Positions 33,401-54,430 of a DNA stretch of 64,000 nt are shown in pieces. Under the pieces are notes generated by a model. It searched no databases. It worked only from the letters and a program-made list of their open reading frames with translations, and was not told the DNA's origin. Numbering within the stretch: the stretch's first letter is position 1; each line of letters begins with the position of its first letter. This stretch comes from Sinotaia quadrata (Eukaryota; Mollusca; Gastropoda; Architaenioglossa; Viviparidae): assembly GCA_028829895.1 (NCBI GenBank), contig CM054181.1:64287759-64351758 (forward strand), read 5' to 3'. The position numbers were made by a program, and so were the translations under genes.

Positions 33401-36400
33401 AGCAAAAACATGTGGTGGGCTGTGGAATGAAAGGTCAAGATGACATATGATGCAAAGATAGTCAGAAGCAAACTTCAGTAAACAGAGAGAGATAGGTATC
33501 ATAGTACTGTCATAAGAATCTGGTCTAAAATGTGGCCACATTTACAGGTGAATAAGCAAACATATTGTATAAAGTTGAAAACATGAAGAAAGTCTAAAAT
33601 TTTCTTCACTGCTGGACAAACAGGATATTGAGCAATCAAAATGAAAACGATTTTATTTAAGAATATACAAGTATATGTAATAAAAATATATTTATAACTG
33701 TCTGCCACCCTTTCACCCTCAAACTAATCTGTCAGTACTGACCACAAACATGTTTTGATTGACTACTTGCATCAATTTGGTTTTCTTCAGTTCATCTGTT
33801 ATGATTTTTAAACATATATTCCCTGTTTATGTTAGACAGATAGAGTGATTTAAAAATTAAAACAGAAAAATCCACAAAAAGTTTTCTTTAACATAGGACT
33901 TCAGGTACAAGCATTCTTGCTTGTACTTTTGTTTATAACAAGTGTGCTGATAAAGTGACTATAAAAGTTATATTTAACTTTACTTGATGAAGTAATTATT
34001 CTGAACTATTGCTGTTAATAATAATCAAAATATTGCAATTTATTTCATATGCAAAATTTTTTTCACTTGTACACATTTTCAACACAATATTGTGATTTTA
34101 TATGTATTTAAGAAACATATTAATGCAATAGCTGCTATTTCTATTTTCAGCTTCCAAGAAAATAAATTGCAGGAAGTAATTTCAACACAACAATAGACAG
34201 ATAATAATCTTTCAGTATAAAGAAAAAGGAAAAATAAAAACAAAATAACCAGCAAGCAAGTGAAGTTTAAGCAATACATTACCATCATCAATTAAATCAA
34301 GGCTAGGACCAACAGTAGACAACCAGCGAATCAGGTCACGATGAATAGTTAAGGATTTTGTCTGTGGTTCATAGTGACCAACTGTGATGGTTTCATTACT
34401 GAAGATTTGTTGAATGGTTAAAGCACCTATTCGATCGCTGCCATCAAAAGCAATGTTACCAGATACTCCCTGGAAGTGGGTTCGATTAATGGCTTCAACA
34501 AATGCCCTAAGAAAATTGTAAAACATTCTTTTATAAGTAATAAAGTTTCTTAAAGTCAGAATAAAAGAGAATGTTTTCATTATGCTTATTATATTTATAT
34601 TGTACATTCTCCCTCCCTAACCTCCTACTTTCATTCCCAAATGTCACCTAATGCATTAATATCTTAAGTCAGAGAGCAGTAAGATGTGAGGTTACTCATA
34701 AATCTTGACACACTTCTATAATTAGCAGATGTCACAATGAAATTCCATAAAGTTACTGCTTTGGTAATAATACATCCCAAATGATACTACTTAATAATCA
34801 CTTCTCAAATCAGAAAACATTTACACGAGTGGGTAAGTGATGGTTTTTAGAATGCAGCTATTAATCATGTCTGGCAAAAAGCCTGTTATATTATCAAGAA
34901 GGATATTTTCTAAATGTACCTACTCTTAATACTAGCAATATTTTCTAAATGAAGTTACTCTTAGGATACAAGCAATACTTTCTAAAATGTAGTTTTAATA
35001 CACTAGTGATATTTTCTAAATGAAGTTACTCTAAGGCGATATTTTCTAAAATACTCATTATAATGGAGGTGATACTTTCTAAAATGTAGCTGCTCTTATG
35101 ACAAGGAGATACATTAAAAAATGTAGCTATTCATTATGACCAGCAAAAATCTTTCTAAAATGTAGCTACTTATTATGATACAGGTGATACTTTCTAAAAT
35201 GACAATAGCAATACTTTCTAAAATGTAGTTACTCCTATGACAATAGCAACACTTTCTAAAATGTAGTTACTCCTATGACAATAGTAATACTTCCTAAAAT
35301 GTAGTTACTCCTATGACAATAGCAATACTTACTAAAATGTAGTTACTCCTATGACAATAGCAATACTTTCTAAAATGTAGTTACTCCTATGACAATAGCA
35401 ATACTTTCTAAAATGTAGTTACTCCTATGACAATAGCAATACTTTCTAAAATGTAGTTACTTATTATGACACTGATAAATACTAAGTAACCAAGAATTTA
35501 AAGAAATACAATAGCTCGTTTATATATTATGTATTTTGGCATTAAAAATAAAAAGGTCATATATTCTGACAACAACAAAATCACACTAACTTAGCAGTCT
35601 TCTCTTCATTAAATGAGTCCAGAACAGCTGGATTCTCCTTCAGAAGATTATGAAGGCCCTTGGCAAACACCCACACAGCATCATACACAAAGCTTGCAAA
35701 AGGGGTCTCTTCAACATACTGCAAGAAGTAACAAAGGGAAAAATATACGAATGTTTATTAATCCTTATTAAAAATTTCAAATTTCTTCACTTTTGGGATA
35801 GAGCAAAAATTCCCAAACTAAACCAGTAATGATTATTGTTTTCAACATAAAGTAAACAATTGGGTCCAATAACCTCGACATGATTTAAGTGTCAATTAAT
35901 TATATTATTTCAACAGAGAAGTCTAAACATAAAGAAATGGAAGACATACTATTTTTATTTTGTAATTTTGTAACTGAAAAAGAAAAGTGTTCTGGAAAAA
36001 TACTTATTAAAGATATTTTAAAAGTAAAATGTTATAGGAAACTTTGACAAAGCTGCAACTCACAGACTTTCCAACATATTCTGCATACATTTTTTTGTAC
36101 TGTGTTATAGTTATGCCACCTGCTGCTGTCAAATCACTGTCATCAATGAAACTCTTGGACAATATAAAGTGACCTTCAATGGCATATTCCATCTCCTAAA
36201 ACACAGAAAGCAAAATTGTAAGATGGTAAATGCAGTTTTCCATCATCCCATCAGACATTATTTGAATAGTTTTCACAGCTAGTTATTATTTAAGTCAGCC
36301 CAGACAGATTGTGACCTTGTAATAAATACTCTTCAAATAAACAAAAATAAATATGATCACCTCTGTTGAGCATGGGACTGCTTCTTGTGGTCGTGGATCA

Positions 36401-39400
36401 GAGGGTGATGGTGGACCATTGAGAAAATCAACATTCCACCATTCTTGAGCATACCATGAAGGTAAAAACCAAACATATCCATCATGTGCTGTCATGCGCT
36501 GAAAACAAATTTTCACAATATTATTGTTCTAATATCAATATATCATTATCATTACACTAGTGATCAATCTGAGTTATTACTATTTAATTTAAAAATAAAC
36601 ATGAAAAGGAAATTTATTCTAGAAGAGTATCATGCATCTTCACTGACATACAAGCCACAAACCAAGTATGTTCCTGGGGGGATATGAATAATTATATTAC
36701 CTGCCCAGTAGCATGTTTCTTACAATTATGTTCCCTTAGAATCTCAAAAGTGAGGAACAAGCCTGAAAAGTGGAAAGCTGGAAGAGCAATGTGTACACTC
36801 ATGTGGAAAGTATTTAGGGGAATTTATTTTTCTTAGAAAAATTACTTTTCCAGTCACAAATAGCTGAAATTGTATGAGAAAAATAATGAAAAGGAGTGGA
36901 ATTTTCTGTGTGAAATAAATAATGTATATATTTATGCATGAAATGAATACAACCTAATAAATAATGTATATACATGTAAAAATGCAAACAAGCAACAAAT
37001 TATGTATATATTTATGTTGTGAAATGCATACAAACAAATAATATCAGAACTGCCAGTCTCTTGACTTCAACAGCCAAAGAAAATGGGTAAGACCTCTGTA
37101 GAGATATAAAGAGAATTAAATCCTGTAATAACACACAAGCAACAAGAAAATATTTCATTTGTTTGATATACCCTACGAGTGCTGAACGTTTTACTGATCA
37201 TGATATATACTACTGCCAAATTTATGAATGTCTTCCTTCACAATGATGAGTGACAAGATCTAAGAAAGCAATGCCAGCAATCCTGGAATCTGATGGAAGG
37301 CAAAGGCATAAGGCTGTCTGAGGTAAAATCTGGCAGTTTTCTCAGAATTTCTGATGCATTTTCTAATAAGTGGAACTTATCAGAAAAGAACTATCATTAT
37401 TGACTTCTGGTTATATAAGCTTATCTACAATATGGCATGTGGAAGGTGCTGCAAAGCATTTTATTCTAAATAACTGACAAAGTTTCCATTGCAAATGGGC
37501 CTGAATCAGGAATAAATAAATGAACTGTGAATTGAGTATTATATCTTGTAGCACAGAGATCTATATGTGATCTGTTCCAATAAACAAAAATTGATGGATG
37601 GAGGGTTCATTCTTGCAGACTGACATATCATATGAACCAATCAGCTAGTCTAATATTGGAAAAAAATAATCTGAATAAACTATCAGTCTTTGTAGTGTCA
37701 ATAGGAAATGGAGAAAAAAAAAATGTGAGTAAGAGGTAGAGGAGAAGAAAAAGAAATTAGAAGTCTGGAGCTAATAATTTGTATGACTTATTCATCAAGA
37801 AACAATTTAAACTAATCAGCTTCAAACAAGTACTTATTTTATTCTACAATATACAAACTACAATTATTGTTCACAACCAAACAGATATTTTGGCTATCTC
37901 TACTCTTGATGTGAAATATTTCCAGCACAAATGCAGTACACAGCTTCTATAACTCTGAACATTCATAAGATGACAAAACAGGGTTTAGAGAGCAAGGTAC
38001 CTGCTTAAAGGCTTCACACATGACAGCTCGAGCAACACTACCAAAGAAATCTGCAATGATTACACGCACATTGTTGTCCTTCAGCTCTTTAAAAACCTGT
38101 ACACACACACAAAAAAATTCTCAATGAGTTGAAGAGGATGTCAAACCATCGAAGACATTATAACAAAAGTTTCATAATAAAATTTTTTGCCTATTTCTTC
38201 TACAAGTATATCAATAATACAATGCATAAATGATACCTGAGAAAGATCCACTTTATCTGGGTTGTGGAGAAATTTACGTTTGACAAGAACAGAGACTCCT
38301 TCTTTCTGTAAATATTCCTGCAACTCTAGATGATATTCTGGCAATTCTTGTCCTTCTTCAGCAATAGCTCCTACTCGAGTCCATTTCATTGCATTAAAAA
38401 AATCAGCATACACAAACCTGAGAGAACAAGACCACAACAAATAGATCATTTAAAATGAATGACTTACAACTTATTCTTACGAAATTAATGAACTACAATA
38501 TATACTGATTAAGAAAGTAGTCTGTTCCATGGTTTCACTTAACAAACTGTCAGATTGAGCTAGAGACATCTAAGTATTTAGTACTAGGACCCATAAATAA
38601 TGATTAACAAGAGGAACAGTTCTAAAAAATACTGCCATGCTTCCTGTGTTTGACAAAGGGAGGTTAGCAACAGGATAAATACTTAGTACAGTCAAATTCG
38701 GTTATGTCACTGGCCTAGGGGTTTGCCAAAAGCGTTGAGATAACCAATGATCAAAATAATCGAAAAACAATATGGCGGCAATATATTACAGTACAGTACT
38801 GTAACAGGTGATTGAAATTTCTTTATGTACATGATGTGCATTAATAAATGAGAATGTGCATGCGCAATTTTTGGTGATTTTTTACACAATAGCGTTGCCG
38901 CAATTTGTTTGATGATGCGATTGACATACTATTAAAATGTACATACACTGTACACGTTTGCTAACAACAAAAAGCTTATGTGCTCCGACTAACAGCAGGG
39001 ATTTACCACTACATATATACAATAAAAATTTACAAACCTTTCATTATATTCTCTAACATTGCAAACACAAAGATCACTCACACAAAATCACAAAAAACCT
39101 GTGGGGTGTACACTGTAGTTTGTTTTTACAAAAAGCTAGCCAGTGTCAAAATTAAATTTGCGAGTCATTTCTCTCTGAAAAGTATTGTATGCGCACTTAC
39201 TTTAAAAGTGGGCTAATTAACATAAAAGAGGTATGAGCCAGTTGAAGGGCATCAATAACTAAGATTTTCAAAAGCTGGCAATGATTAATCATGGGGATCG
39301 AGATAACCGATGTTAAGTGGCGATTTTGACCCTCTTTTGTGTTCGAGATACATGTACATGTACAAAGAAAGAAAGAAACAAACAAGCAAACCTGTGTCTG

Positions 39401-42400
39401 ACAAAGGGAGATTAACAATACGATAAATACTTAGTACTAAAACCTGTAATGATTAACTTGTGGAATAGTTCTAAAGAAGTATGGGTAGGTCGTCCTGTCT
39501 GCTAAAGATGATGCCTCTGCTCCATAGCTGACCATGACTGTATGAAAATGGCGAGTCAAAGCAGCAATTGGTTTTGCAGCATCAGAACATCCTGGACCTA
39601 AAAGCACAACAGAAAAAAAAAAACCAACAAAAAATATATTCAATATATTAATAATTGTATGCATGCACATACAAACAACAACACTCAAAAAAATGTATTC
39701 AACACATTAATGTATGCATACAAACACAGACCATAACATTAAAAAATGTATTTAACACAACATTACTTACACAAGCAATAAAAATGTAATCAACACAATA
39801 CACTGTACTTGTATGCATACGTAAACAATAAAAATATGTATTGAACACAAGAATACTTACATAAGCAATAAAAATGTAATCAACACAATACACTGTACTT
39901 GTATGCATACGTAAACAATAAAAATATGTATTGAACACAAGAATACTTACACAAGCAATAAAAATGTAATCAACACAATACACTGTACTTGTATGCATAC
40001 ATAAACAATAAAAATATGTATTGAACACAAGAATACTTACACAAGCAATAAAAATGTAATCAACACAATACTTGTATGCATACATAAACAATCAAAATAT
40101 GTATTGAACACAATATTTGTAAGCATACGTGCAGACATATGAAATTCAATAAACTACCTGAGGGGACAATTAGACTAAATAGTTTTCATTAGGACAATAA
40201 GCCAATAGGTGTATGAAAAATTATGAAATTAATTACCATCTATTTAGATAAATGTTTTATACATCAATCAGCTTTCTTATTTCATTGTTAAATCTGTCAT
40301 TGTTATTAAAAACTGTACTGCCCTGATGAAGCTATTTAGCTGTGATATTGATTCTTGTAGTTGTTTATATATTCATTCTTCACTGGTTATTATGTAGAAA
40401 AATAATGCTAATACTTAAGTGCATCAAAATGTTAAGATATGCAACTATAATTAATTACAAAATATATTAATAATAACAAACTCAGCTCCAATCACTGTAT
40501 CATTATCACTGATAAAAGACAAGCAGTTTTTCTGACTATTGAAGATGATTCCAATCCAGAAAGTTTGTTTTTTAAATATAGGGTTAAATTCAGAAGAGAA
40601 ATATTTAATAGTACTGTTTAAAAGGTCATGTTTTAAATCATCAACTTTACAATGAGACATATGCATTGCATATAACAAAGGCGTTTAACTTTTACATTTA
40701 GATTCATCCAGAAAAATTTAAAAGTGGCATAAAAAATATATATGTATGCTAAAAAGGATTTATTAATATATTTTCTCTATAATTTTTGCAGTTGTAAAAA
40801 AAGGTTTTAATTCATTATATGGAAAATCTTTTAAGGTTATTTGTCAAAAATAAAATTCATATTAATACAGATGGTAATGCGATCGAGATCGTCATGGACA
40901 TGAATGAGAGTAGACAAGTAAAGGCATACTAAACAATACATGTAGTTATTTATAATTTCTGCTGTAAATTTTATTGAAATGTTTGATAATCTCTGTCAAT
41001 GGTCACACATAATCCTAGATAATTTTTTCCCCACAATAAACTGGTTTATTAACTAAGTTATGATGGATCACAAATGACAGCCATTGTATTAATCATATTG
41101 GGTAGTATCAAAAGCAACAGCCTCAAATATGCATTAATTATTTAGTTCCCCAGCATGGTATCTTTTTAGAGTTGGTAAAAAGTTAAATTATTGTTAGGGT
41201 TCATTTAACTTGTAAAAATTGGCCAAGACTCTCAGGGACCATATTTCAGAATACCATATACTACTGTTTTTATTTCAACCTGTCACTGTTTCAATCAGCC
41301 CTCTACCCTTATTTTTAATTCATAAATTTTAAAACATAAGAATTAATAAGTGCATTTTAACTAAAAATGTCAGCTATTTTTATTGTTATTTCATTGTAAT
41401 TACTTAAACAAGTCAAATGGAACTAAAAATAACAAAAAAGCATTAATATCGTTAATATTCAGTTGGCTCAAAGAGCAAATGCACAATTTGTGTTTTTTCT
41501 CATTTTTGAGAAATTATATCTAAAAAAATAAAAAAGCTATTATCTCAGAAAAAAATCAGGCTTCTTGTTAGTATTTGATACATGAGATATGCAAAACTTT
41601 AGCTCTGTTTGATAATCAGTTTTGACTTTATGGTGCATGCAAAATGGCAAAACATAAAAAAACGTATAAAAAGCATTTTCCCCCCAGTTTTTAAAATTGT
41701 GAAAGTAAAGTTTTATCTTTCATAAAAGTATGAAAGATTAAGCAACCATTTTTTGTAAATTGACTTCGTTCAACATTATAGTTAGGTGGTGTAAATTTAA
41801 TTCATTTCCAAAGACTTAGAAAAAATAGCTGGTTCTACCTATTTTAAGTGATATGCTTATAAAACTGATTAACTTTTAAAATACCATAACAAAAGACAAT
41901 GTCAAGCATTTATTATTCTCTGAAAAGTAATGTCTCACTAAAAGAAAGAGCTTTCTTCAAAACTTAAAGCTGTTTTATTAGTGGAGGTGCAGTACAAATA
42001 TTGCATAAGATCTTGAAAACTTTATACAGATTATGGACTGGCTTGCTAATGCCATATCCAGTATACATGCAAACTAAAACTGAAATCTATAAGAAGAAAT
42101 TACCCAAGATTCCAACAATTTTGAAGGTGTGATCCTGGTTGAGCATAAGCTTGATAAAATTGTTCATTGCTATATCTGCTCGACACTGGGTGTCATTGAT
42201 TATCAGTGCCAACTCATGTGATGGAAGTGTTTCATTGTCATTGTTTACCAAATCTACTGCAAGCTTGGCACCTAAGAGAACACAATATATAAAATGGTGC
42301 AATGTCAAAATACTGTAATTTAATTACAGAAGGAATGGAAGAAACTGTATTACATGCAAAGAGAGTTAATGGCTCTCTGTGCATCTGACTTCATCTTTAT

Positions 42401-45400
42401 TTCTCTCAGACTTTTGTCTGTCTTTCCTCTTTGATTTTGTCTTTTATCTCTCTCTGTTTCTCTCTCATCTCATCTCTTCCATTTCTTTACTTTTTCTTAC
42501 CATCTGTCTCTAATTCTCTGGTCTGTCTCTGTCTTTCTCAATCTTTCTGTGTGTGGCCAAAGTCATAGCAATGATAATTCAATAATGATACTAACAAGTT
42601 CATGAATAATAGCAAATCAAGGATAGCAGCTAGCCAAAACATACACTTTACTGTAACTAGACAAACAAAAGGGGAAAAAAACAACAAATGGGACCAACTG
42701 CAAAACACTACAAATTGGAAGAAATCTTAAACTCTTAAGGAATGCCGAAAAAATACACCGCCCTTACAAGCAGCTTATCATGAGTGTGATGAGGAAAGAG
42801 TTGTACTTGGGAGATTACTCCATAATAAGGGTAAATAATTTGATATGTATTTTGAATGATTCTAATTAAGCACTGAACTACAACCTTCTGAGCTTATAAT
42901 ATGATGAGTGCAACCACACTCTACAGTAGGTGCATCTGGCTGTATGTTGGAAAAAGTCACCTTTTACATAAAAGTTTTGAAACACATTGAATGTAAAACT
43001 CTTGAAACAGATTGTTGAATGCAAAAAAACTCTTGAAACACATTACTGAATGGATAATTATGGAGCATATCTGATTTTCTCTAATCTTTTTTAAAATATA
43101 AGATACCCTTGGCAAAATGCTCCCATATCATTGTATCTTGTTCAGAATAATTCACAAAAACCCAACCCCATGTAAGCCATGGGACTGTTGTTCATGAGTG
43201 GTAGATAGGGTCATAATGTTTCATTCTGCTCATAGTGCCATTTGTAATGGTGATGGTTTAGAACAGAGTGCTCGGTTTGTAGAGATGAAACATAAGCAGC
43301 AGTCACACCAATGCACAAAGAGAGAGAGAGAGAGAGAGAGAACAAGAGACACAAGGTTATATTGCTGGCATAATCCATCTTTATTTACACTCTGTGTAAA
43401 CATTACATGAAGCAGAGTTCACCCCAAGTCATAAACCACACTATAACAACTCTCAACAACTTGTGGTTTCACTTTCTACTGTGCTATAAGCAGCACTGAA
43501 TAATGCACCAAACATGGTGTAAGAACATGTCACTTTGAATGAAGTAGAACATGGCAGAACATCAAAAATATCTAATACTGTCCATCCATCAAGAATATCT
43601 AACACTCTAGTTCTTCTCCCTTCTCTGACTCTGAGACTGATACTGATCGAGTTGAACGTAAACTCATAATCTTGTAATAATCATATAATAATCTTGTAAT
43701 AATTTTGTAATCATCTTCTAAATAATCCGAGCATGCTGTCTGGCTGCCCTCCTTATATATTGAGTAGATGGTCACACACAAATGCTCCTTAAGGGTTCGG
43801 GTCTAGAGCAGGCAAAAATGTCCGCAAAACATAGCTTTTGCGTTTCTTATACATCTTTAAATATAAACAATTGTTCAATATTTAGAAGCTAAGTGTCAAA
43901 ACAAACATATAATGAAACTATATCATACTCGAAAGTGCAATCATTAGTTAGCATAAAAAACAAAGAATAAGACTTATAATAAAATGTGTAGTGTCATGTA
44001 CAGAAAAAGCATTATCACTCGTTCAAATCACAAAATACATAAATATAAAAAGATCAAACATCATGTCAACATATATCAATAAAAAATATAAATTATCTAC
44101 TTTAATAATATATAAACTTCTAATATTAATGAAGAATATATCTAATCAATATTTAAGGTTAAGATAGATACCATCACACACACACACTGTGGCAAGTCTT
44201 AACATATAAATGGGTTATAATCTGACTTAGTGCATGTCGAGACTTGTTGGCTTTTGCCCAATGAACATTAATAGTACCAGGGCTTACACCCATTATTAAG
44301 TATAATTAAGTATATGTACTAGTATTGTGACCATTAAAATAAAAAGTACATTTAATAATTCACACAAAACAACCAAGATTCATGCACACTGAAACATACT
44401 TACACCCACAAACTTACCTTCAACCAGGCCTGGTACAGATAAAAACTGACCAGTCAATGGAAATAAACCAACAAGATATAACTTTGGCTTGTCAGTGAAA
44501 GCAGGTGGAAGCCAGTTTTCCCATACATCACGGTTCTTGAGCACCCACTGGCAAGCAATTTCCTCTGGTTCTAGTTGAGCTTGAAGTTGTGCTTCAACCT
44601 GGAGATCACAGTACTCTTGCTGTGTCAAGCTCATTTTGGAAATAACATGAAATGCCTCTGGTGCTCCTGCTTTCACTCGGTACCAAGTAACTTTTGAGAA
44701 CTGATTCACCTGAAATTTATTTAAATTTTTTCTGATCATCTTCCTTTTATAATATTATTTATTAAATTAAATACACTATGAAATAATCTAATAAATTTCA
44801 TTCTTAGCTTAATTATAAAAAGCATACTTTATTTCAAAACTTAAATGGTCTTTTCCTAAATACTTAAGTGTATTTCAAATAACATATGCTATTATTAATT
44901 CTAAAACCAAGGAAAAGATAATTAAAGAATATATCAGAGAATAATTTGCTATGAACTGAAGCTTATGTATGGTCAACCTTTGCCCATTATTGTAGATTTT
45001 TTTTTTTTTAAAGTATACTGATGAAGGACTAATGGTCTAACTTTCTAAGCATAATTTGGCTATCTAGAAGAAAAAAATTAAATTATTTATAGTTTACAAA
45101 AACGAAAAAATTTCCTACCATGAAAATCTACAGTATCATAAACTTAATTATGTGAAAAATATGCTGTAAGGTGAGTTCTGTGCTTGTTTACAAAAAAAAA
45201 AAAACCCTCATAACCAAGTGAAAAGGGCACAAATGAATCAGTTCCAAATAACTTTAATACTACATGAAAGAGAGAAGAGTTATGCTGTACAAGCCTTCAA
45301 ATTTGGAATATAAATTGCCCTTTGTATAAGAAAGCAATAATAGTTGCCAGATTTAGAATATCTTATTTAGTCTTTACGTTATTAATTTTTTAATGTTTGA

Positions 45401-48400
45401 AAATATGTACTCTTTGACCATTCGTAAAAAAAATCATTAAATATTTAATACTTAATTTATTTAAGATATTTATTTTATTTAAAATATTTAATTTTTTTAT
45501 TATCTACTGGACAAGCTCCCCCCCCCCCAGCTATGCAATCTGGTTTTTAAATTTTAAGAAAAATAGTTATGAATTTTTTATCATACCCATCAAAAAAAAT
45601 TTTTTGGGGGGTGGGGGTGGGTGGGTAAAAGTAGGATTTTAAAAATTTATTTTAAAAAAAACTAAAGCCTACAGGCTTTCTTCATCCATGCATAACTTTT
45701 TAACTGTATGTATTACCAGTATACCAAATTTCTGGGACATGTAATAATTACAAAAAAAAGTACTCAAAAGGAGCCTTGAGGGTTGCTCAATGGATGAAAA
45801 AAGTCGTTTTGAGAAAAAAATGCATTTAAAGTAAAATAAAGACTACAGTATTTGAAAACTGTTCAAAGTTGTTTAATTCTTTTATAAATATACCCTATCC
45901 ATACCACATTGGACTGCTATTAGTCATTTAGCTCTCTCAGCAATATTTAATAGAATTAAATAGTCTGCCTTCTACAGCCTCATTGTACTGTCTTTTTTAT
46001 TTTCTGTACAACCAGAATACTGCAAGGAAAATAGAAAAAATATATTTATCAATCTACATTTCTAAAATTTGGAATATATGTTGTCTTTGTTATGAGAAAG
46101 TAATATCAGTTGTTAGTTTTAGAATATCTGGTATAGATTTTATTTTATAAATTATTTAAATATATAAAACACATATATTTTCCTAAATTTAGGCATGTCC
46201 ATTAGACTAGAGAAAAACAGTAAGTCTTATTGTAAAAAGAAATTATTCTTCAATAAGCATGTTTTATTATTTAAGAGTTGGATATGATTATTATTTTGTA
46301 ATGTTTTATTCATTTCTTTGTCTTTATGTATGAGTATTTGCAATATGTTTCGTAGATGTAGTTTGTTTCAGACCGATAATTTCTTAAGAATATTGCAAAA
46401 ATGATCTTATATGTAAGCTGGAAATGATTTATTAAATATTTCGTAATTGTCAAAATGAAATGGTGTATTACATGTACTTATCACTACTTGGTTGTCATTG
46501 TGAAAATGTGAACTTTGTCTATCAAATGAACGGGCAGTAGAAACGTTAAGCGCCAAATTTTGCTTATCCCATCAATGTCTAACTTCTAAACATAAATAAA
46601 TATTTAAAGAAAATGTTTATTTCATGAGCAAAATTGTGTTTGGTCAACTAAAATTAATAATGGCTGATAAAGTAAGATTCCCTAAGTGTTAATAAAGGGA
46701 CTTGTTTGTTGAAGAGCCCTTAGCAACCAGGACTGTCTCAACCAATTGAGTCTTTTACATGATTTGCATAAAATCTGATCAGGATATTAGGTGAGGCGAC
46801 AGTTTCTCAAAAGACAGTATTTTAACAATTGTAATGTAAGGGAGGTAATCCCCTGTTTCTGCGTGCCGTGTTCCTTCCTACAATACAAATAATGGTGGCA
46901 ATTGGGAGTCAAACTATTGCATTTTGGGCAATTTTCAGCACAGGTGGGTTCAAAAAGAGTCTTTATTAACATAAATAAAGCATTTTGTACAGTAAGAAAA
47001 TATAAAATCCTGAAAGAGTATAATGCAAATATATAAAAATCTCAAAAGTTAAAAAAAAATACATTTTTTTCCCTCTCACTGGCTTATGCCATCTATCGCC
47101 TTTAGAAGAAACAGGTTGTGCTTATTTTTCTCATGAAGAGCAAGGTAAAAGGAAATGAATGAACATAAAAGCAATTTATTTTAAATAGAAATTCTATGCC
47201 TTGGAATTATGTGCATAAGCTGTGTGAGAATTTTTAAGAAAATGGAGAAAACTGGCAGGTCAGTCATCTTTAGCTGTTTACAAAAGATGTCTTTCCTTAA
47301 TTTCTTTATCATTAATTAAAGATCAAGTGAATAGGAATCAATTTCAAACACACACACACACACATATATAAAAAAACAAGATAGTAATACCAAGATTTCT
47401 AAACATTCTGGCAAAGTTTTAAGTTGTCAGCAACTTTTATAAATGGTATTATTTTAGCATTAAAGTGGAACAGAAATCAAAGCTCTCGATAATGCATGAT
47501 TGCCACATGAGATCCTACTTGGACACAATTAAAAAGAAAAAATCCTCTTTGGGCAGTCATTCAACAAATATCTTACCTGAAATTCAGTACTTGGATTATC
47601 TTGCTGTTTGATGCTGCTCCCTTGATTATGATGTTCTGGGAAGTTCATACGAGAGAAGTTACCACTGAGGTTAAGTTTGCTTGGCTCCCAACTGAAGAAC
47701 AGAATGTGGCGTCCATAAACTGTCTGGTTCAAAACAAACTGTTCAAGATCTCTGCCAAGCCAAATAACATCCACTGGCAAATTCAGAGTCTCGATTTGAT
47801 GCTGAATCATTCCTGCATCCAGCCCTAGTAACAGTACAACATTAATAATCAATAATTTTAAAAACAGTTTAGTTTAATTATAGCTGTCTGATGTAGGTTT
47901 ATAACAATGTGATATATTACGAAATAAGGAAATTTGGGAAAGTTTTTAATCTTAAGAAATAACAGAATATATATGGTTCTGAGATGACGATTAAGCATTA
48001 GATGAAATATGTCACGAAAAACTGCACGTCTAATCTGTCTGTCTGCTCACATGTCATTATATTTGTCTGTATGCAAGAAAGATTATGGAAATGCATTTCA
48101 TTTTTACTAGATATAGAGTATTAGAACAAATATATTTTGCTTTAATTTAGAATGTAATGTAATTTTAAAACTAGTCATTTTCTTATTCTGTGTCTTTATC
48201 ATTTATAGGTTATCCCTTTGGGGATGTTTATTTATACACTGACAGAGCTGTTACATACCATTGATACATATTAGAAGGGCTACCTCTGTCCCATATCAAT
48301 ACTGTTACTTTGCTACATTCAGTATTTCACTTTACTTCATGAGTACTACACAACTCTGTCACAAGAATGCTACATCCTGCAGCACTGTTATTACACCTTG

Positions 48401-51400
48401 CTACAGTTACAGTGATGTTGCTTTTTGCCACAGTATGCTGCCAGTAGGGATGTACTCATTCTCCTTTATGACGGTTGTGTTTGTTAACAATACTATGATG
48501 GTTTGCTATAAAGCACATGGCTAGGATGTGTCAACATCGTGTACATTTTTCTGACACTGCCACAACTGATAGTCATCAAATTTTACTGGTTTCACAAGAC
48601 TTGTCATGATGACCAAAAGGTTAAAACAAAGACAATTTTTTTTCCTGACCAATAAACATACTGAAATATTTTCTAATATTGGTCACAAATTAAAATGCAT
48701 TTGCAAAACAAAATAACAAATACAGATTAATTTTTCTAATTAATTATCTAATATAAATCTATAATGCATGAGTAATAATGACAATTCTTTTCTTTTTAAA
48801 AACACGTATGCAGGTGCACAACCACAGAGAAATTCTTTTACAAACATATCAGGATTGTGTTTCAAACGGAATTGTATAGACAGTAATTAGTACACAAGTA
48901 TATCAGTGATATAAAATATATAATATACATATTATGCATAAAATATACAATTCATTCATGTTCCTTTGACAAATTCCCCCCCGTCCCCAACTTCCTAAAC
49001 TGAGATTCCCCAATATATTCTCCCAACCCCTGATAATGGCTCATATGTGGATTGAAAATATCAAATTGCCAGCATGGTATTTTACCTACCTCTGAAGCTA
49101 GAAAATAGTGTAGCACAATTCTTTCTCCTTTTGTTGCAGTGATGACTTCTGTAAGCAATCTTTTCACATGAAGGACACAGCTCTCGCCAGTCTGGGTGAT
49201 CCCACCAAGAGAAATTTCTAGCCACAGACTTTATAAGCAAAGAACGCCAATGGTCCACTACAATTTTATCTGCCCACATCTTCTCCACACAAGATGAGGG
49301 CATGAACCAACCCATCCTGGCAAGGAAAGATAAATATAGAAAACACTAGACAGGTGATGAGACATATGCCTGAAAATTGTGCTTTACTTTGTAACTACTA
49401 AAATATCTTTCATAAAGAATTCACATTAGCTTAAGTTGCAATAAAACTTCATTGTGAGAATCCAAACAAATTTGGCAATCATTCTGTTTTGGTTGGTGTT
49501 TTAAAAATAAAAAACTTTTACAGAGTACAAAACAAAACAATATAATTATTTATTTTGTTTAATGTTTTACTTTTACTCCCTCACAATGCCATAGATACAT
49601 AAAAGGTATAATCTTCTACGGAAGATAAACAGATCATATCTATAAGTTTACCTGCTATAAGGACCAAGAGGACCAGCATCAATCAATCGTTTTGTGTCTA
49701 TCCAAGGTGCTTTGTTAAAGCCAGCAGACATCCATGTCTCCAAGTTAACCATTGTCTCTGGCACAGAATCCATACCAACCCCTTTACACCTGTGGGGAAA
49801 ATATGGAATAAAATACATCAGTAATTGCACAGGTCATCAACCCAGCAAATCAGTCAATTTTATTTTTGTCAGTGAAAACTGTATCATTATAGAAATGTAT
49901 CACTATCAGTAGTAAAGTCCTCCCCTCTCAGTAGTTTAAAGGGTCTCTCAGTAGCAGAAACACTTCCCTGTAAATGTGACAACACTAGAAACATCAACAA
50001 ACAAACAAACAAACAAACAAAAATAGTAAATGGACCCGCATTTATGCTTATTGAAATCATTTGCTCTTGAGTAACAGAAACTCAAGCAATACTGCTTGCC
50101 TATTATAACCATGTGACTATCAATCAGAAAAAATACTGCAAACACATAATGCAATTAGCATTAGTATATACACCAGTTATGTATGTACCAAACTGAACTG
50201 CAGTGAATGAGTCAAAAGAAAGTGGACCATACAGTAGTTTTAAGTAGCACCAAAGTAGCTCACTATAGTTCCTAGATAAGTTTATAAATATTACCACAGA
50301 TGGTTAAAATTAGGTGAATCTTAAATTCTGAATGAACTTTGAAAGAGGTGGATACAGGATCATAAAAGTTAGCATAAAACTCTGAAATTACACTTCAAAC
50401 TTTAAAAAAAATATTTTAGAAACTGGATGTTTACAACTATACTAAAGAAATGTCACAATGTTTTCACAATAGTTTAATTATGTGATAATTAAATCAGAAT
50501 AGGCAAAAACATGAACATATTTCCAAGCCAATTAAGTCTGTCACGCACACAAAAAAAGGACTCTACTGTGCTGTACAAAATACCGGGCAAAACAGTTCAT
50601 GGAAAGGATTTCAAACTGTGCTATTGAAGTACTATATGTCATTACTTCATTCAGTGGAACAGGCAACTATCTTGTTATATTAGTCATTTATAGCACTCTA
50701 AGAATAACACACAATGAACTATAGTTAGGTAAAAGGTGCAAGCATGCTAGTGCTTTTGCATATAGCTCATTCTCTGTAGGGTGGGTCCATTTGAAATGTG
50801 TTATTTTAAAAAGCAATGAAATATCATGTGTTTATATTCTATATATTCAGAATCAATGTGAGAGATATAAAAGATGGTCGCATGAATTTGTGTTTATTTA
50901 TTTTGTAATTATTTGTAATACAAATTCGTTTTGAAACTGAAAAATGGCTCTTTTTGGGGTGATATGTTTACATACAGCTATTTTCTTTAATTTTCATTGT
51001 TATACATAATCCAACAAACTTACTGCATCAAGATTTTCTTAGAAGTGATAATATATTAAAATCAACATTCTAGATCCTTTTTATCTGGAAATAGTCAATT
51101 TTATGAAGAAATAATATTTTTAAAAGGCATCGTTTTTGTCACACTTCTTTCCCATAAATTGGATTCAAAACTTTTTTTTATTCTTTTACCAAACACTGAC
51201 TTGTCATACATAAAAGCCAAGTGCTATTTTTTTGAACAATCATTGCAATCAAAATACTCATACACTAAGTTTTTCAAATATATTCATTGTATTCAGAAAT
51301 ATTCAGCTTTAACAAAAAAATAATTTGCCTTAATTTCCATTTTAGCAATTGACAAAGAAAATAAATTCATAAATATTAAACAAATGACGATAACATCGAG

Positions 51401-54400
51401 AACTAACTCTTACATTTTTGAAAGGTGCCATATTGTAGAAAGATAATTCTCACTTTAGCACATTTTAGGCTGAGAAATGTAGAGCTTCTTTTAGGATGGT
51501 TGATATTTTTGTCTGTGGGGGCTGAATAAGGTTTTCACACAATCACGCAATAAAATTATAGTTTTATAATCCATTTGAAATAAATATGTAATCAGATTAA
51601 GTTAATAATTTGAGTTAATAAGAAAATATATTTGTTGTAATGAGATAATTATACTGCTTATTTAAAATATTTTTTCCTGGTAAAACACATCTCAACTTTA
51701 CTTTCTAAGTTTTCAACACAAACATGCTTTTTACATATTTCAGACTCATATAACATCAACAATTTATAATTTCGATCTTTTCTTATGTTTTTATGTGAGC
51801 ATTAGGCTATGTTGTAGACTTGTAACAAGTAAAATACTTAAGATTTAATCCACTTTATTTTTTGCACTTCATATCACAAGAGGGTACACTAGAACAGAGA
51901 ATGATCTATATACATGTATATTATTAATATTATGCTCTCACTGGCCTCTGTCTAATGAGAGCAATATTAGAAGTGCTGTGTTAATATGATTAAATTACAA
52001 ACAAAACCCCAAATGGTAACTGTTTAAAAATTGTAATATTAAAACTGTGTAAAAAAAAATATTTAAAAAGAAAATCCAAAAAAATTTAAACATTTATTCC
52101 TATTAATTATGAAACATACAAACAATACTAAAATGATATAATATAAAGATTTTAGGACTTGTAAAATGCTTGCGAACATTCTAAATGCAATTATTTGAAA
52201 GTCATTTGTCTACAAAGAACACTCACTTTGAGGGAGAACAACCAGTAACTCTATCCAACACATTTGAGGCACTGATGTTGTCATAGTAACTGTGGCTGAG
52301 AAGACTAATATTCTGGTAACAGAGTACATCTTCTAGCACAATTTTTAAAATGTGGTTGGCCAACTGATGAGAAGCACGGTTACTGTTTTCTATCACAAGC
52401 GGCAACTCAAAGCCATTATGATAGAAATGATGAAGATTGCCTGCAAAGTTAGAAAAGTGCCATCACTAATCATATTTCAACCCTCCATGTTACTAAACTC
52501 AAAGTTTCTATAAAAATTTGCATTACTGATAAACACTATCAACACTTTATCTGTTCTAAAGTAAGAAATTAAAGAAAAGCAAATGTGTTGAATATATAAC
52601 TATATGGAAAATAAATAATCTACATTTACAAAACAAAATCTGACTATGATGTGGAGAAATTTGATTTTGTGTGTGTGTATTCAATTTCAAATTACCTAGG
52701 TAAGACAAACAGTAAATATTAATGTAAAGCAGGGAAAAAGAAAATATTAAAATGTAGTTGTTACACATCTATAGATTACCACAGATATTTAGCTTCTGAA
52801 TCTAAAATGAAACAAAACTAAGAGCTGAGAACCTCAAAACCAACAAAAACACACAAACACATACATACCACTATATTAAATGAAATGATTACCTAAAGTT
52901 AAAGATTAAACAAAGACATGCCGAAATCAATATATATGCAGATATTAATATTGCAACAAATGTCATTACTAAAAAGCTTAATTATAACAAACAGTGGTTA
53001 ATTATAACAAATAACCACTGTAAATCTGAAGACAGTAAGTATAAAATGAACATATCTAATTAATAACTGTAAAAATTAAAATACATTAAATCCAAAATTT
53101 ACTTCATAAAAATTATGTATGAAATCTTCAACTTCTTTGTGTAGCCACATTAAATGCATGGTTTATAATAAACATTTTACATTTATTATTTATGATGTAG
53201 ATTCATAAATGTTTTTTTTTAATACTTTTTTCAGAATGTGCTTGATTATATATAGTGTTCAACATATATTAGTCCAAGTATAAGAAACCCCTCTCTACTT
53301 CTACTTGTTACACAAACTGTTGCTAAGTCTTCTATTATAATAATTCTGGATCAAAACTTGCTATTTCATGTTATGATAATGAATATCCAGGATTTGAAGT
53401 TAATAGCTAAAAATGTCTTATATATTATAACGATTCTAGACACTGGTCAACACTTGCCATTTCAAGTTATAGTAATGAATGTCCAGGATTTATAGCTAAT
53501 AGCTACAAATGTCTTTAATATTATAAATTATAATATTCTAGATCACTGACCAATGCTTGTTATTTCAGGCTATGGTAAATCTGCAGTTTAGAACCTATTC
53601 CTTTAGGTCCCTGTGACCATAACTTTGACTCAAAGTGAATAGCTATAACTTACTGTAGAGGGAGGCATTTGACTGTCCCCAAACTAGGAGAACTTTGCAC
53701 AGCTGCTGGCTTGTTTGCCAACTTATTAAGAATACAGATACAGCACACATCTACAGTTTACTATGGAAAGTATCCAGAAATTATATAATAAAAACATTTT
53801 ATTTATTGGAAAATAATATATAATAACTATATAATAAATAATATGTAATAAATAAAATAATGTGGGAGCAAATCTATTGTGGACATATACATTTGAGACA
53901 TTACTAGCTAGGTAGTAAATTTGACACTCTAATTAGCAGTAAATCAGATTAATATTTCTCTTATATTTCCCTCCTCAAAATCTAATGCTTTACAAATTTA
54001 AAAGCTAAAAAAAATTTTAATGTGTCAATCAAATTTAAACATTTTAATAATTAATATGAGAGAGGACATATTTAATCAATTATCACTATCAGTTATCAAT
54101 ACACTTGCACAGTACATGTACTTTAATTTTACACAATGTTATTCTCTGGCAGACAAGGCCATAGTTACTGTCTCTTGAAACAACACCAAATAATATAATA
54201 ATAACTTTAATTTAATTAACTTTGCTTTTGTTAAATAATTTGTTTAATAAAGTAATATGTAGATTTAGTTATATATATAAGTAACAATAGCAAATGTAAA
54301 ACTTCAAATGTCTTTTTTACAAGCACTTACATGATCGCTGTGAAATGCAAGATCCATGGACCACATTTGGTAGCAGCATTATGAATGTAAGGACAACTCC

Positions 54401-54430
54401 ATACATTAGTGTGAATTCTACTTTTCTCAT
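20909..54430 (-). CDS. VKR: Venus kinase receptor with an extra N-terminal OpuAC-like domain (complete, 21 coding exons)
   Basis: This is a single-pass receptor tyrosine kinase of invertebrates. The 21 exons sum to 3,987 bases, 1,328 codons plus TGA, and all 20 junctions keep phase. Domains in order: signal peptide (1-26); OpuAC/ProX-like substrate-binding domain (about 40-376); Venus-flytrap domain of the ANF-receptor/GABA-B class (about 385-800); membrane segment (about 834-857); tyrosine kinase (about 895-1165) with GEGAFG 905-910, Lys929, Glu946, gatekeeper Met975, HRD 1030-1032, DFG 1050-1052, DYYR activation loop 1061-1064 and SPE 1077-1079; Ser-rich tail to 1328. The kinase is closest in wording to the insulin receptor (GLLPVRWM-, PYQGLSN-like strings). 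Known VKRs signal in reproduction and growth and respond to amino acids or peptides; that is family knowledge, and the ligand here is unknown. The OpuAC module is not part of the VKR layout I know. Exon coordinates are listed separately. Confidence 0.93.
21926..22133 (-). CDS. VKR: VKR exon 20: kinase activation segment end and helix F
   Basis: Encodes residues 1069-1138: [12 protein letters not shown], then [13 protein letters not shown] and FPYQGLSN. These strings closely follow the insulin-receptor kinase C-lobe; the APE motif reads SPE. The donor is GTGAGT at 21925 and the exon ends in phase 2. Intron 19 (22134-23598) holds a 52-bp triple repeat and AT-rich DNA. Confidence 0.95.
22335..22500. 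repeat. 52-bp tandem repeat, three copies, in VKR intron 19
   Basis: CTGATCAAA begins at 22366, 22418 and 22470. Each copy has AATGTTATTAATTGCTGATC or a variant, then TTTTCATGCCTATTCT. An (AATA)n tract follows at 22542-22565. Confidence 0.92.
23599..23711 (-). CDS. VKR: VKR exon 19: catalytic loop and activation loop
   Basis: Encodes residues 1031-1069. It completes the HRD motif (Arg split across the intron) and continues [10 protein letters not shown], then [10 protein letters not shown], then [10 protein letters not shown]. Asp1032 is the catalytic base, Asp1050 of DFG binds magnesium, and Tyr1062-Tyr1063 match the paired activation-loop tyrosines of the insulin receptor. The loop reads LACRN rather than the usual LAARN. 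Intron 18 (23712-25228) holds two tandem duplications and a pyrimidine-rich stretch near 25000-25160. Confidence 0.95.
24301..24530. repeat. 59-bp tandem repeat, four copies, in VKR intron 18
   Basis: TATTAACGCT or its variant begins at 24311, 24370, 24429 and 24487. Units carry ACCAGGTTGTTCATCAGACT and GTTGTACATT. Confidence 0.93.
24633..24823. repeat. 95-bp tandem duplication in VKR intron 18
   Basis: ACATCACAGTCATTATGTAA starts at 24633 and again at 24728. The two units differ at only a few positions, so the duplication is young. Confidence 0.93.
25229..25379 (-). CDS. VKR: VKR exon 18: kinase hinge, helix D and helix E
   Basis: Encodes residues 981-1031: [11 protein letters not shown] (hinge and helix D, like HGDLKSYL of the insulin receptor), a short polar insert with NSKEAED, then [13 protein letters not shown] and YVHR. 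The catalytic loop is cut inside the Arg codon of HRD. The donor is GTCTGTAAG at 25228; a better GTAAGT sits four bases further on but would shift the frame. Intron 17 (25380-26208) shows nothing but AT-rich DNA. Confidence 0.94.
26209..26329 (-). CDS. VKR: VKR exon 17: helix C to hinge of the kinase
   Basis: Encodes residues 941-981: [19 protein letters not shown], then [18 protein letters not shown]. Glu946 is the helix C glutamate that pairs with Lys929, and Met975 is the gatekeeper, as in the insulin receptor. Intron 16 (26330-29974) is the largest in the gene at 3,645 bases and holds a 114-bp duplication near 27.4 kb and transposon-like sequence near 27.8-27.96 kb. Confidence 0.95.
27382..27560. 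repeat. 114-bp duplication in VKR intron 16
   Basis: GTAATATTCTTTGAAGCTGT begins at 27382 and at 27496; both copies continue into GAACTGACTGTGA. Short reading frames over this region reflect the repeat. Confidence 0.9.
27800..27960. mobile_element. possible pogo/Tigger-type transposon remnant in intron 16
   Basis: CCCTCATTATAATGCGGCCT followed by CATTGTAATGTGG, and a right edge TTATAATGGTTGACTGTA, resembles pogo-type elements that end in a form of TTGACTGTA (inverse of TACAGTCAA). The left terminus was not located. Confidence 0.3.
29975..30215 (-). CDS. VKR: VKR exon 16: juxtamembrane region and kinase N-lobe
   Basis: Encodes residues 860-940. After a basic, helical juxtamembrane stretch ([12 protein letters not shown]) comes [17 protein letters not shown], the glycine loop GEGAFG (905-910) and VAVAVKKLK with the ATP-binding Lys929. 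WE(I/V)PR is a common opening of receptor kinase domains. The donor is GTTAAT. Intron 15 (30216-32401) contains A/T-rich simple sequence (about 30300-30380) and nothing else I recognise. Confidence 0.95.
32402..32540 (-). CDS. VKR: VKR exon 15: membrane segment
   Basis: Encodes residues 814-860. Two extracellular Cys (818, 831) flank EDFRAILGV; then a hydrophobic run from about Ala834 to Ile857 ([21 protein letters not shown]) ends at KCR, a stop-transfer signal. One segment only, so this is a type I single-pass protein and not a seven-helix GABA-B-like receptor. The donor is GTATGT. Intron 14 (32541-34282) is AT-rich with one dispersed-repeat-like patch near 32760-32880. Confidence 0.94.
34283..34506 (-). 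CDS. VKR: VKR exon 14: end of the Venus-flytrap domain
   Basis: Encodes residues 739-814. The order [34 protein letters not shown] and [10 protein letters not shown] is the standard end of ANF-receptor domains (FxGVSGxVxFD...R.G...I.Q...VGxY). Donor GTAATG. Intron 13 (34507-35590) is filled by the 38-bp array on its right side. Confidence 0.95.
34900..35480. repeat. 38-bp tandem array in VKR intron 13
   Basis: AAATGTAGTTACTCCTATGA begins near 35221, 35258, 35297, 35335, 35373 and 35411, so the period is 37-39 bases. Units continue CAATAGCAATACTTTCTA. Copies between 34900 and 35200 are more diverged, giving an age gradient from left to right. The array ends about 110 bases from exon 13. Confidence 0.95.
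35591..35718 (-). CDS. VKR: VKR exon 13: flytrap domain, lobe 2
   Basis: Encodes residues 697-739: [20 protein letters not shown], then [19 protein letters not shown] is a hallmark of this fold in GABA-B, mGluR and VKR ectodomains. Acceptor TTGCAG, donor GTTAGT. Intron 12 (35719-36063) is plain AT-rich DNA. Confidence 0.95.
36064..36195 (-). CDS. VKR: VKR exon 12: flytrap domain, lobe 2
   Basis: Encodes residues 653-696: [17 protein letters not shown], then [15 protein letters not shown]. The A(V/I)(E/D)G(Y/H)F start is typical of the linker between lobes in class C receptor ectodomains. Acceptor TTTTAG, donor GTGAGT. It is separated from exon 11 by a 165-base intron. Confidence 0.94.
36361..36498 (-). 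CDS. VKR: VKR exon 11: flytrap domain, lobe 2
   Basis: Encodes residues 607-652: [20 protein letters not shown], then [10 protein letters not shown] and a Pro-rich loop ending VPCSTE. GYVW(F/L)LP..Y matches the VKR/GABA-B pattern where a substrate-facing Trp lies. Phase 0 at both ends. Intron 10 (36499-38000) is AT-rich and holds TATGTATATATTTATG words near 36,920-37,020. Confidence 0.94.
38001..38096 (-). CDS. VKR: VKR exon 10: flytrap domain, lobe 2 start
   Basis: Encodes exactly 32 residues (575-606), phase 0 at both ends: [18 protein letters not shown] then [14 protein letters not shown]. The pattern L(K)xxxxRVII..F......VMCEA is standard for lobe 2 of ANF-receptor domains. Its acceptor is preceded by a (TG) tract. 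Intron 9 is only 140 bases. Confidence 0.95.
38237..38417 (-). CDS. VKR: VKR exon 9: flytrap domain, hinge region
   Basis: Encodes residues 514-574: [19 protein letters not shown], then a Glu-rich loop, then [20 protein letters not shown] is the (F/Y)xWxxVG.(I/L) motif that follows the first lobe in all receptors of this class. Acceptor CTCAG, donor GTATCA (weak). Confidence 0.94.
38577..38690 (-). pseudogene. relic copy of the 3' end of VKR exon 8
   Basis: On the minus strand this segment reads [11 protein letters not shown] where exon 8 ends [12 protein letters not shown]. It is flanked by the same TAGTACTAA and TAAGTATTTATC...CCCTTTGTCA wording that follows exon 8. The donor dinucleotide seen in exon 8 is lost here. 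It is a partial tandem duplication of the exon end and adjacent intron, now inside intron 8. Confidence 0.75.
38689..39335. mobile_element. probable pogo/Tigger-type DNA transposon remnant in intron 8
   Basis: It begins with CAGTCAAATTCGGTTATGTC right after TA. The inside carries GAGATAACCAATGATC and ATAATCGAAAA. Near the right end GAGATAACCGATG is followed by GGCGATTTTGAC, a degenerate inverse of the left end. This is the look of a TA-target pogo/Tigger family element or MITE. It separates two copies of the duplicated intron-8 sequence. No transposase remains. Confidence 0.5.
39444..39597 (-). CDS. VKR: VKR exon 8: flytrap domain, lobe 1 ligand-binding segment
   Basis: Encodes residues 463-514: [18 protein letters not shown], then [14 protein letters not shown], then YPYFFRTIP. 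GPxCSxAxxP and the SYG...S(S)LxDR...YP.(F/Y)RT.P order place the first-lobe ligand contacts; Ser492/Ser493 lie where mGluR and VKR proteins use Ser for alpha-amino binding. The donor GTTTTAGT is weak, yet it is the only one that joins in phase to exon 9 and restores NHYRFVY. Confidence 0.93.
39700..40120. repeat. 90-bp tandem array in VKR intron 7
   Basis: AAAATGTAATCAACACAATA begins at 39781, 39871, 39961 and 40051, exactly 90 bases apart. Inside each unit two related words (AACAATAAAAATATGTAT and AAGCAATAAAAATGTAAT) suggest an older 45-bp unit. Since 90 is divisible by three, a repeated 30-residue peptide appears on the minus strand; it is not a gene. Confidence 0.96.
42104..42271 (-). CDS. 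VKR: VKR exon 7: flytrap domain, lobe 1
   Basis: Encodes residues 407-463: [17 protein letters not shown], then [16 protein letters not shown] and [10 protein letters not shown]. The order A..A(V/I)..(V/I)N, then L.L...DT.C, then VGxxG is the standard start of the ANF-receptor fold. Acceptor TCTTAG, donor GTAATT. Intron 7 (39598-42103) holds the 90-bp array; the rest, 40120-42100, is AT-rich without a gene. Confidence 0.95.
43319..43340. repeat. (GA)11 microsatellite in VKR intron 6
   Basis: Pure GA run followed by AACAAGAGAC. A pyrimidine-rich, CTCTCT-type tract also lies at about 42380-42550 in the same intron. Confidence 0.9.
43600..43830 (-). promoter_or_regulatory. possible promoter, perhaps a solo LTR, in VKR intron 6
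   Basis: On the minus strand the sequence reads CTCAATATATAAGGAGGGCA then GCCAGACAGCATGCTCGG, the shape of a TATA box with a start region about 25-30 bases downstream, as in LTR retrotransposons. The segment is less AT-rich than its surroundings. I found no paired LTR, primer-binding site or TG...CA ends, so this is a suggestion only. Confidence 0.25.
44418..44709 (-). CDS. VKR: VKR exon 6: end of OpuAC-like domain joined to start of flytrap domain
   Basis: Encodes residues 310-407. Residues 316-376 ([15 protein letters not shown], then [20 protein letters not shown] and WL) follow the C-terminal helices of OpuAC/ProX proteins, which have the form (A)PEA...LK..SL....  ...EEAA..W...N.D.V..WL. 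After a short PPAFTDKPK linker, [13 protein letters not shown] (386-398) opens the flytrap domain. The two domains meet inside one exon. Intron 6 (42272-44417) holds simple repeats and the promoter-like segment near 43.7 kb. Confidence 0.94.
45606..45625 (+). other. G-quadruplex motif in VKR intron 5
   Basis: The plus strand has four G-runs of 6, 5, 3 and 3 separated by single T, a strict G4 pattern with one-base loops. A run of 11 C lies 78 bases to the left (45518-45528), which puts poly-G on the opposite strand. The G-runs are on the template strand of VKR. Confidence 0.85.
47348..47364. repeat. short (CA)n microsatellite in VKR intron 5
   Basis: About eight CA units followed by TATATA. 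Intron 5 (44710-47576) is otherwise AT-rich, with a mollusc-type AGGGAGGTAATCCCCTG motif near 46839. Confidence 0.85.
47577..47824 (-). CDS. VKR: VKR exon 5: OpuAC-like domain, lobe 2
   Basis: Encodes residues 227-309: [20 protein letters not shown], then [18 protein letters not shown] and [10 protein letters not shown] block of the form (I/V)LF..W.P......(L).(R)(V/M)..P is conserved in OpuAC/ProX proteins, where the Trp belongs to the ligand cage region. Asn259, Asn278 and Asn282 are N-glycosylation sequons. A polar, Gln-rich stretch (about 291-306) follows. Phase 0 at the 3' end; donor GTAAGA. Confidence 0.93.
49090..49316 (-). CDS. VKR: VKR exon 4: OpuAC-like domain, Trp- and Cys-rich part
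   Basis: Encodes residues 151-227. (Y)[14 protein letters not shown] (149-163) fits the OpuAC pattern GR.GWYVP....., then DHWRSLL and [14 protein letters not shown] follow. A cluster Cys198-x2-Cys201-x9-Cys211-x6-Cys218 with a basic KRRK comes next. Asn185 is an N-glycosylation sequon (NFS). Donor GTAGGT. Intron 4 (47825-49089) shows no gene. Confidence 0.92.
49652..49789 (-). CDS. VKR: VKR exon 3: OpuAC-like domain, hinge
   Basis: Encodes residues 105-151: [20 protein letters not shown], then [20 protein letters not shown] and PLGPYS. LE(T)W in mid-domain and the G.LG..(G/S)R lead into exon 4 recall metazoan and bacterial OpuAC domains (LE.W...(V)...G.LG..GR.GWYVP). Acceptor CCACAG, donor GTAAAC. 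Intron 3 is 335 bases with nothing notable. Confidence 0.92.
49995..50021. repeat. (CAAA)n microsatellite in VKR intron 2
   Basis: About six ACAA units. Intron 2 (49790-52226) is otherwise AT-rich, with no recognisable gene. Confidence 0.9.
52227..52440 (-). CDS. VKR: VKR exon 2: start of the OpuAC-like domain
   Basis: Encodes residues 34-105: [20 protein letters not shown], then [18 protein letters not shown] and [19 protein letters not shown] first beta strand (LPLVIEN), an Asn/Ser/His-rich loop and a long helix ending (L)LEDVLCY match the opening of type 2 periplasmic binding proteins (.I.(I).....S...A.....LLE..LGY.V). Asn77 and Asn88 are N-glycosylation sequons. Acceptor TTTGCAG, donor GTGAGT. 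Intron 1 (52441-54330) holds a diverged three-copy repeat at 53330-53580. Confidence 0.92.
53330..53580. repeat. about 105-bp diverged tandem repeat in VKR intron 1
   Basis: ATGAATATCCAGGATTT and ATGAATGTCCAGGATTT, each preceded by a TGCTATTTCATGTTAT-like word and followed by AATAGCTA(A/C)AAATGTCTT, mark two copies; a third partial copy lies near 53540. Confidence 0.8.
54331..54430 (-). CDS. VKR: VKR exon 1: start codon and signal peptide
   Basis: ATG is at 54430-54428. An in-frame TGA lies 15 codons upstream with no ATG between, which fixes this as the first Met of the frame. MRKVEF, then the hydrophobic [15 protein letters not shown] and HGSC form a signal peptide with likely cleavage after Gly26. 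The donor is GTAAGT at 54330 and the exon ends in phase 1. Any 5' UTR intron is unproven; an acceptor-like GGACAG lies near 54511. Confidence 0.92.

Follow-up and report, generated by a model that had tools for sequence, protein, structure and literature searches.

Which signals can reach an invertebrate receptor kinase that carries a second binding-protein domain in front of its known sensor? The question is raised by a gene on the minus strand of a 64,000-nucleotide stretch of Sinotaia quadrata (contig CM054181.1; hereafter, the window). The receptor that it encodes is an ordinary Venus kinase receptor (VKR), and the element at issue is its N-terminal domain, residues 34–377, which precedes the Venus flytrap. 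VKRs have been described as consisting of a flytrap, a transmembrane (TM) segment and a kinase only (PMC2680970, PMC3703292). An earlier, sequence-only reading of the window proposed that an extra domain of the OpuAC/ProX type stands ahead of the flytrap, and its exons, reading frames and quoted motifs could all be located on the minus strand.

When searched against the PDB with phmmer, the window domain matched TmoX (E = 3.5e-5), the sole PDB match up to an E-value of 10. The alignment covers the OpuAC-like motifs noted earlier, namely RPVVVFNWTPNF and the APEAF...VWENWL block, with the LGPYSRMGWFMP motif lying in a separate weak stretch that scores −1.9 bits with the single sequence and 6.4 bits with a 13-row profile (the window domain plus 12 relatives). 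Six PDB entries came up with this profile at E ≤ 1 (best E = 8.2e-13), and every one is a protein of the kind that binds betaine, choline, trimethylamine N-oxide (TMAO) or dimethylsulfoniopropionate. For the Lottia orthologue, the predicted fold is type 2 and bilobal, nearest to OpuAC, ProX and TmoX. One result speaks against the assignment: the window domain alone gave no match to Pfam OpuAC (PF04069) up to E = 10. This Pfam family matches ten of the 13 profile rows at a lax E ≤ 10 (best 1.2e-6), and the domain is already implicit in databases through precomputed PF04069 annotation on five retrieved proteins (P0014, P0136, P0139, P0164 and P0165). NCBIfam gave weak matches on the 13 rows (choline protein, best 0.0013, and ProX, best 0.0043, on four rows each; the others were unrelated), and ionotropic glutamate receptor domains appeared among the weaker matches.

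The proposed OpuAC-type homology is thus borne out by the TmoX match, the profile matches and the predicted PBP2 fold of the Lottia orthologue together. We regard an OpuAC-type domain within one receptor as virtually certain. Residues 34–377 are filed accordingly and not as an ABC transporter component, because the domain forms one protein with a receptor kinase, both here and among the relatives. It is related to the OpuAC-type substrate-binding proteins (TmoX, 4XZ6; DmpX, 7YLE; ProX, 1R9L; OpuAC, 3L6H; choline protein, 2REG) and unlike them in this fusion, in its eukaryotic leader peptide and conserved cysteines, and in not keeping Glu131 and Trp55 of TmoX.

The gene model comprises 21 predicted exons (54430 to 20909, minus strand) and yields a product of 1330 residues. 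Splice sites were picked by eye for GT-AG borders, matching phase and homology-like frames, so that their agreement is partly by construction; not by construction are the availability of a GT-AG/phase pair at every intron and the end-to-end alignability of the product with its relatives. The parts of the gene are as follows (codon positions of the two tryptophans by arithmetic):

54331..54430, minus strand: exon 1, start codon and signal peptide, residues 1–33 (hydrophobic residues 6–30)
52227..52440, minus strand: exon 2, PBP2 domain, residues 34–104, beginning with residue 34 and including the ExSxR loop
49652..49789, minus strand: exon 3, PBP2 domain, residues 105–150
49732..49734, minus strand: Trp124 codon; in the alignment, the counterpart of Trp102 from the TMAO aromatic box of TmoX
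49090..49316, minus strand: exon 4, PBP2 domain, residues 151–226, with GWF motif and conserved cysteines
47577..47824, minus strand: exon 5, PBP2 domain, residues 227–309
47688..47690, minus strand: Trp272 codon; in the alignment, the counterpart of Trp222 from the same TmoX box
44418..44709, minus strand: exon 6, C-terminal part of the PBP2 domain (ENWLPP, residues 373–378) and first flytrap strand (KLYLVGLFP, residues 385–393)
34283..42271, minus strand: exons 7–14, remaining GABA-B-like Venus flytrap (ANF_receptor), residues 407–815, with Ser467 and Arg505
32402..32540, minus strand: exon 15, membrane-spanning segment, residues 816–861
20909..30215, minus strand: exons 16–21, juxtamembrane region, insulin-receptor-like tyrosine kinase and C-tail, residues 862–1330

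Exon 1 is the least certain: filtering for phase 1 and a hydrophobic leader gave seven listed candidate starts, and a gtaagt donor accompanies just two of them, 54430 and 54406, which share this exon. Downstream, Pfam ANF_receptor covers residues 408–770 (E = 1.7e-53), a flytrap that qualifies as GABA-B-type, and the kinase matches PK_Tyr_Ser-Thr (PF07714; E = 4.6e-87), with its catalytic motifs between residues 907 and 1081; its likeness to the insulin receptor is one that we assume from the VKR papers rather than from direct comparison. Hydropathy (Kyte-Doolittle, window 19, cut 1.6) marks two segments only, the leader (residues 6–30) and residues 825–867, leaving a single TM helix between flytrap and kinase. 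LgVKR, TcVKR, SgVKR, AmVKR and SmVKR1/2 have the same flytrap, helix and kinase as the window protein, whose closest full-length relatives (P0001–P0005, including four gastropods: Pomacea, Nucella, Babylonia and, as a partial sequence, Batillaria) are 68–74% identical to it. Pomacea being a caenogastropod, the sequence itself points to a snail of that group as its probable source. The residues for amino-acid binding are present in the flytrap, Ser467 (GPGCSD) corresponding to Ser66 and Arg505 (FFRTI) to Arg107 by motif match to the numbering of PMC3703292.

A model built from genomic DNA alone, with splice sites selected for GT-AG and phase, might in principle have joined exons 1–5 from another gene to a receptor, or have taken in a bacterial contaminant. 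We consider such an artefact extremely improbable. Within the exon at 44709–44418 the PBP2 domain ends and the flytrap starts, which upholds the earlier claim of a single gene; the N-terminal domain is 67% identical in Pomacea; and relatives carry N-terminal domain, flytrap and kinase within single proteins, some of them on contigs of 4–5 kb whose short length suggests that they are transcripts. On the strength of the straddling exon and the one-protein relatives, we reject both a separate gene for exons 1–5 and bacterial contamination. A scan of bacterial and archaeal genomes for a close donor gave 28 pattern matches, none of them confirmed by tblastn, with distant donors still possible. Some relatives bear the names guanylate cyclase or class C G-protein-coupled receptor (GPCR), identities ruled out for the window gene by the tyrosine kinase in which it ends. 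For the locust SgVKR, a Sanger-confirmed open reading frame of 1277 residues has been reported (PMC5601475); the Schistocerca americana protein P0040, which we infer to be its ortholog, is likewise 1277 residues long and carries the N-terminal domain at 37–398.

Is the domain a peculiarity of Sinotaia? VKRs were gathered by the kinase region of the Lottia protein only (residues 820–1110), so as not to select for the N-terminal domain, and the best 120 of 1284 were taken; another retrieval scored 7994 candidates and listed 120 of 183 matches. The entries include some isoforms and close species. All 120 kinase-retrieved VKRs possess the flytrap. At least 300 residues precede it in 102 of them, and each of these 102 has the N-terminal domain (worst E = 5e-39), including all 88 that lay outside the training of the hidden Markov model (HMM). 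Among the 18 with a shorter N-terminus, ten keep part of the domain and eight have none, all eight beginning within six residues of the flytrap. Built from 17 sequences, this HMM matched 127 of 135 VKR-type proteins (16 of the training sequences among them), 0/72 other retrieved proteins and 0/135 reversed sequences. Another, made from the first 390 residues of 15 arthropod proteins (some rows therefore including the first few flytrap residues), recovered seven of eight test proteins, among them the window protein (6.4e-63) and the two from hemichordates; the one missed was the brittle-star P0196.

Named sources of the domain are gastropods, bivalves, a cephalopod, annelids, a brachiopod, nemerteans, chelicerates, crustaceans, insects and two hemichordates, the phyla—except for Pomacea—being those we assume from the species names. 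It is carried by Tribolium P0044 (E = 1.3e-57), presumably TcVKR, and by Lottia LOTGIDRAFT_109151 (P0009), whose number is that of the LgVKR entry in Table 1 of PMC3703292. Receptors published without the domain do contain it. Since it occurs in 102 of 102 adequately long VKRs, the domain is a general part of the family as sampled, and we consider it very likely to be so throughout spiralians, arthropods and hemichordates; a species-specific peculiarity of the window VKR is ruled out by the same count among the best 120 of 1284. The sequence-only reading had called for relatives uniting OpuAC-type domain, ANF_receptor and tyrosine kinase in one protein, and these were searched for and found. 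Its dual-sensor VKR stands insofar as both binding-protein domains are present; that this sets the window protein apart from other VKRs does not stand.

Two hemichordate VKRs (P0143 and P0181, from Glandiceps and Ptychodera) show the full architecture; the accessible text of PMC3703292 gives this phylum no VKR, and PMC4026697 later lists it. Universality has several points against it. Gene predictions in Table 2 of PMC3703292 let the flytrap begin in exon 1 or 2 in Nematostella, Drosophila species and Hymenolepis. No named VKR from Diptera, Lepidoptera, platyhelminths, cnidarians or sea urchins is among the listed matches. The brittle-star protein (P0196, from Amphiura) has the last part of the domain at its very start (6e-7), its short N-terminus being probably a truncated gene model.

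Type 1 and type 2 binding-protein domains are also united in one chain in ionotropic glutamate receptors, a likeness they share with the window VKR. An N-terminal OpuAC domain in a eukaryotic receptor is likewise on record for fungal class C GPCR-like proteins of Allomyces (six sequences in the available text of PMC3251606), which differ from VKRs in their seven-transmembrane effector, their fungal origin and their lack of a tyrosine kinase. As for VKRs themselves, the family was described in 2009 as having no further known domain that could be detected, according to the accessible part of that paper. The flytrap starts at E4 in Lottia and Capitella, E7 in Schistosoma and E9 in the sea urchin, with E1/E2 in Nematostella and Drosophila species (PMC3703292); upstream coding exons have therefore been known in part of the family, though unnamed. 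In the literature searched, which covered few subscription journals and in part excerpts of papers, we found no report ascribing an OpuAC or second binding-protein domain to a VKR, so that a second sensor of a known receptor family has apparently been overlooked so far.

What might the domain bind? The TmoX pocket is formed by Trp55, Trp102, Phe106, Glu131, Trp177, Phe220 and Trp222 (PMC8918994), and we counted the corresponding residues over 62 VKRs, hand-picked from 135 for diversity and completeness. The Trp102 equivalent, Trp124, is tryptophan in 58/62, the Trp222 equivalent, Trp272, in 49/62, and Phe270 is aligned to Phe220; no equivalent of Trp177 could be assigned in the VKR alignment. 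With two box tryptophans mostly kept, a cationic small-molecule ligand is plausible, and we read the cleft as one that formerly held a solute with a cationic nitrogen, though not TMAO itself, and that may do so even now in many lineages. A plain TMAO receptor is disfavoured because Glu131, which hydrogen-bonds TMAO, is not kept. The near-invariant ExSxR loop might contact an acidic group.

Several observations count against such a pocket. The place of Glu131 is variable in VKRs, with mostly hydrophobic residues; that of Trp55 would lie in the ExSxR loop, as judged by secondary structure only; Phe129 matches Phe106 only with a one-residue shift; and the two phenylalanine positions rank 87 and 119 of 346 in conservation. 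The full set of W, F/Y, F/Y and W is found in just 31/62 VKRs and in 0/14 hexapods, 11 of which have both tryptophans. It is likewise absent (0/4) from the four rows lacking both tryptophans, Pinctada P0127 and P0027, P0030 and P0031. The domain as a whole also shows lower mean pairwise identity than the flytrap (0.33 vs 0.43) and a weaker correlation of its identity matrix with that of the kinase (r 0.51 vs 0.82).

The four proteins without both tryptophans have P at one of the two places and V, L or F at the other, and keep the N-terminal domain. Their loss of both residues suggests that one group, possibly of bivalves, has come to bind a different ligand.

Other functions must be weighed against small-molecule sensing. 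The domain could be a protein- or peptide-binding module or a dimer scaffold, for instance a docking site of neuroparsin-type hormones such as mosquito OEH. The response to an 86-residue peptide by a receptor whose flytrap is of the amino-acid type would then be understandable: OEH is reported to bind and activate AaVKR, by a mode discussed as open in the available text of PMC5601475 and PMC4522560, and hexapods keep the domain despite their eroded aromatic set. Neuroparsins, however, are described from arthropods only, whereas molluscs, annelids and hemichordates have the domain just as arthropods do; PMC4522560 proposes the flytrap as the OEH site; and the listed matches include no named mosquito VKR. 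If Ser505 of the Anopheles VKR is flytrap S66, as the GPxCS motif match indicates, about 439 residues would precede the flytrap there. On balance, we consider a peptide-binding role unlikely. Alternatively, the domain could be a ligand-free relic, comparable to a pseudo-enzyme and kept for folding, export or spacing, with which the partly lost TmoX pocket and a conservation below that of the flytrap would agree. Its presence in all 102 adequately long receptors, in hemichordates as in protostomes, and its near-invariant columns (W148, 61/62; S50, 60/62; W118, 58/62) argue otherwise, and we judge a relic to be unlikely as well.

The explanation we favour, at even chances, is a VKR with two tandem sensors, the first for a small cationic-nitrogen solute, whose two inputs steer the kinase. 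In this layout, a type 2 OpuAC-type domain comes first, then the GABA-B-like flytrap for amino acids, a single membrane helix and a kinase of the insulin-receptor type. The N-terminal domain would bind a betaine- or choline-like molecule in its cleft, its open or closed state would, judging from the architecture, bias the flytrap dimer, and the kinase would fire on two chemical inputs, an amino acid and a second solute. Taken singly, the parts of this proposal differ in strength. The domain probably modulates kinase activation and does not serve folding or trafficking merely; binding of some small ligand in the cleft is slightly favoured; a methylated or quaternary amine as that ligand is a tentative suggestion, less likely than not. 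In its widest form—a family-wide dual sensor of betaine-, choline- or TMAO-like solutes that gates the flytrap, with a pocket that later changed in insects and disappeared from some bivalves—the proposal is rather doubtful. Weighing against two inputs, mutation of a flytrap serine abolishes arginine activation of the Anopheles VKR (PMC6401105), and the flytrap is for this reason the demonstrated sensor.

Elsewhere in the window, minisatellite arrays occupy introns and flanks of the gene (35199–35461, 39735–40113, 24306–24518, 24633–24825, 3150–3427 and 11006–11263), for example a 38-bp unit repeated 6.9 times at 96% and a 90-bp unit repeated 4.3 times at 94%. A 145-residue open frame lies at 5899–6333 on the plus strand; Pfam offers nothing convincing for it (best 0.067), and we take it to resemble domesticated hAT-transposase-like proteins of the GTF2IRD2/ZMYM type. 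Among the neighbouring frames, no tRNA gene was found.

In helminths and insects, VKRs have reported roles in growth and in the formation of eggs (PMC5601475, PMC4522560, PMC6401105). Their ligands are unsettled, the candidates under discussion being arginine, calcium ions and a peptide of the neuroparsin type. If a second binding-protein domain is present, ligand screens and flytrap-only models have covered half the ectodomain, and deleting or mutating the N-terminal domain in an expressed VKR would make the ligand question directly testable. Should the tandem-sensor reading be true, one invertebrate receptor would read two nutrients—the second an osmolyte or methyl-donor signal—and drive insulin-like signalling.

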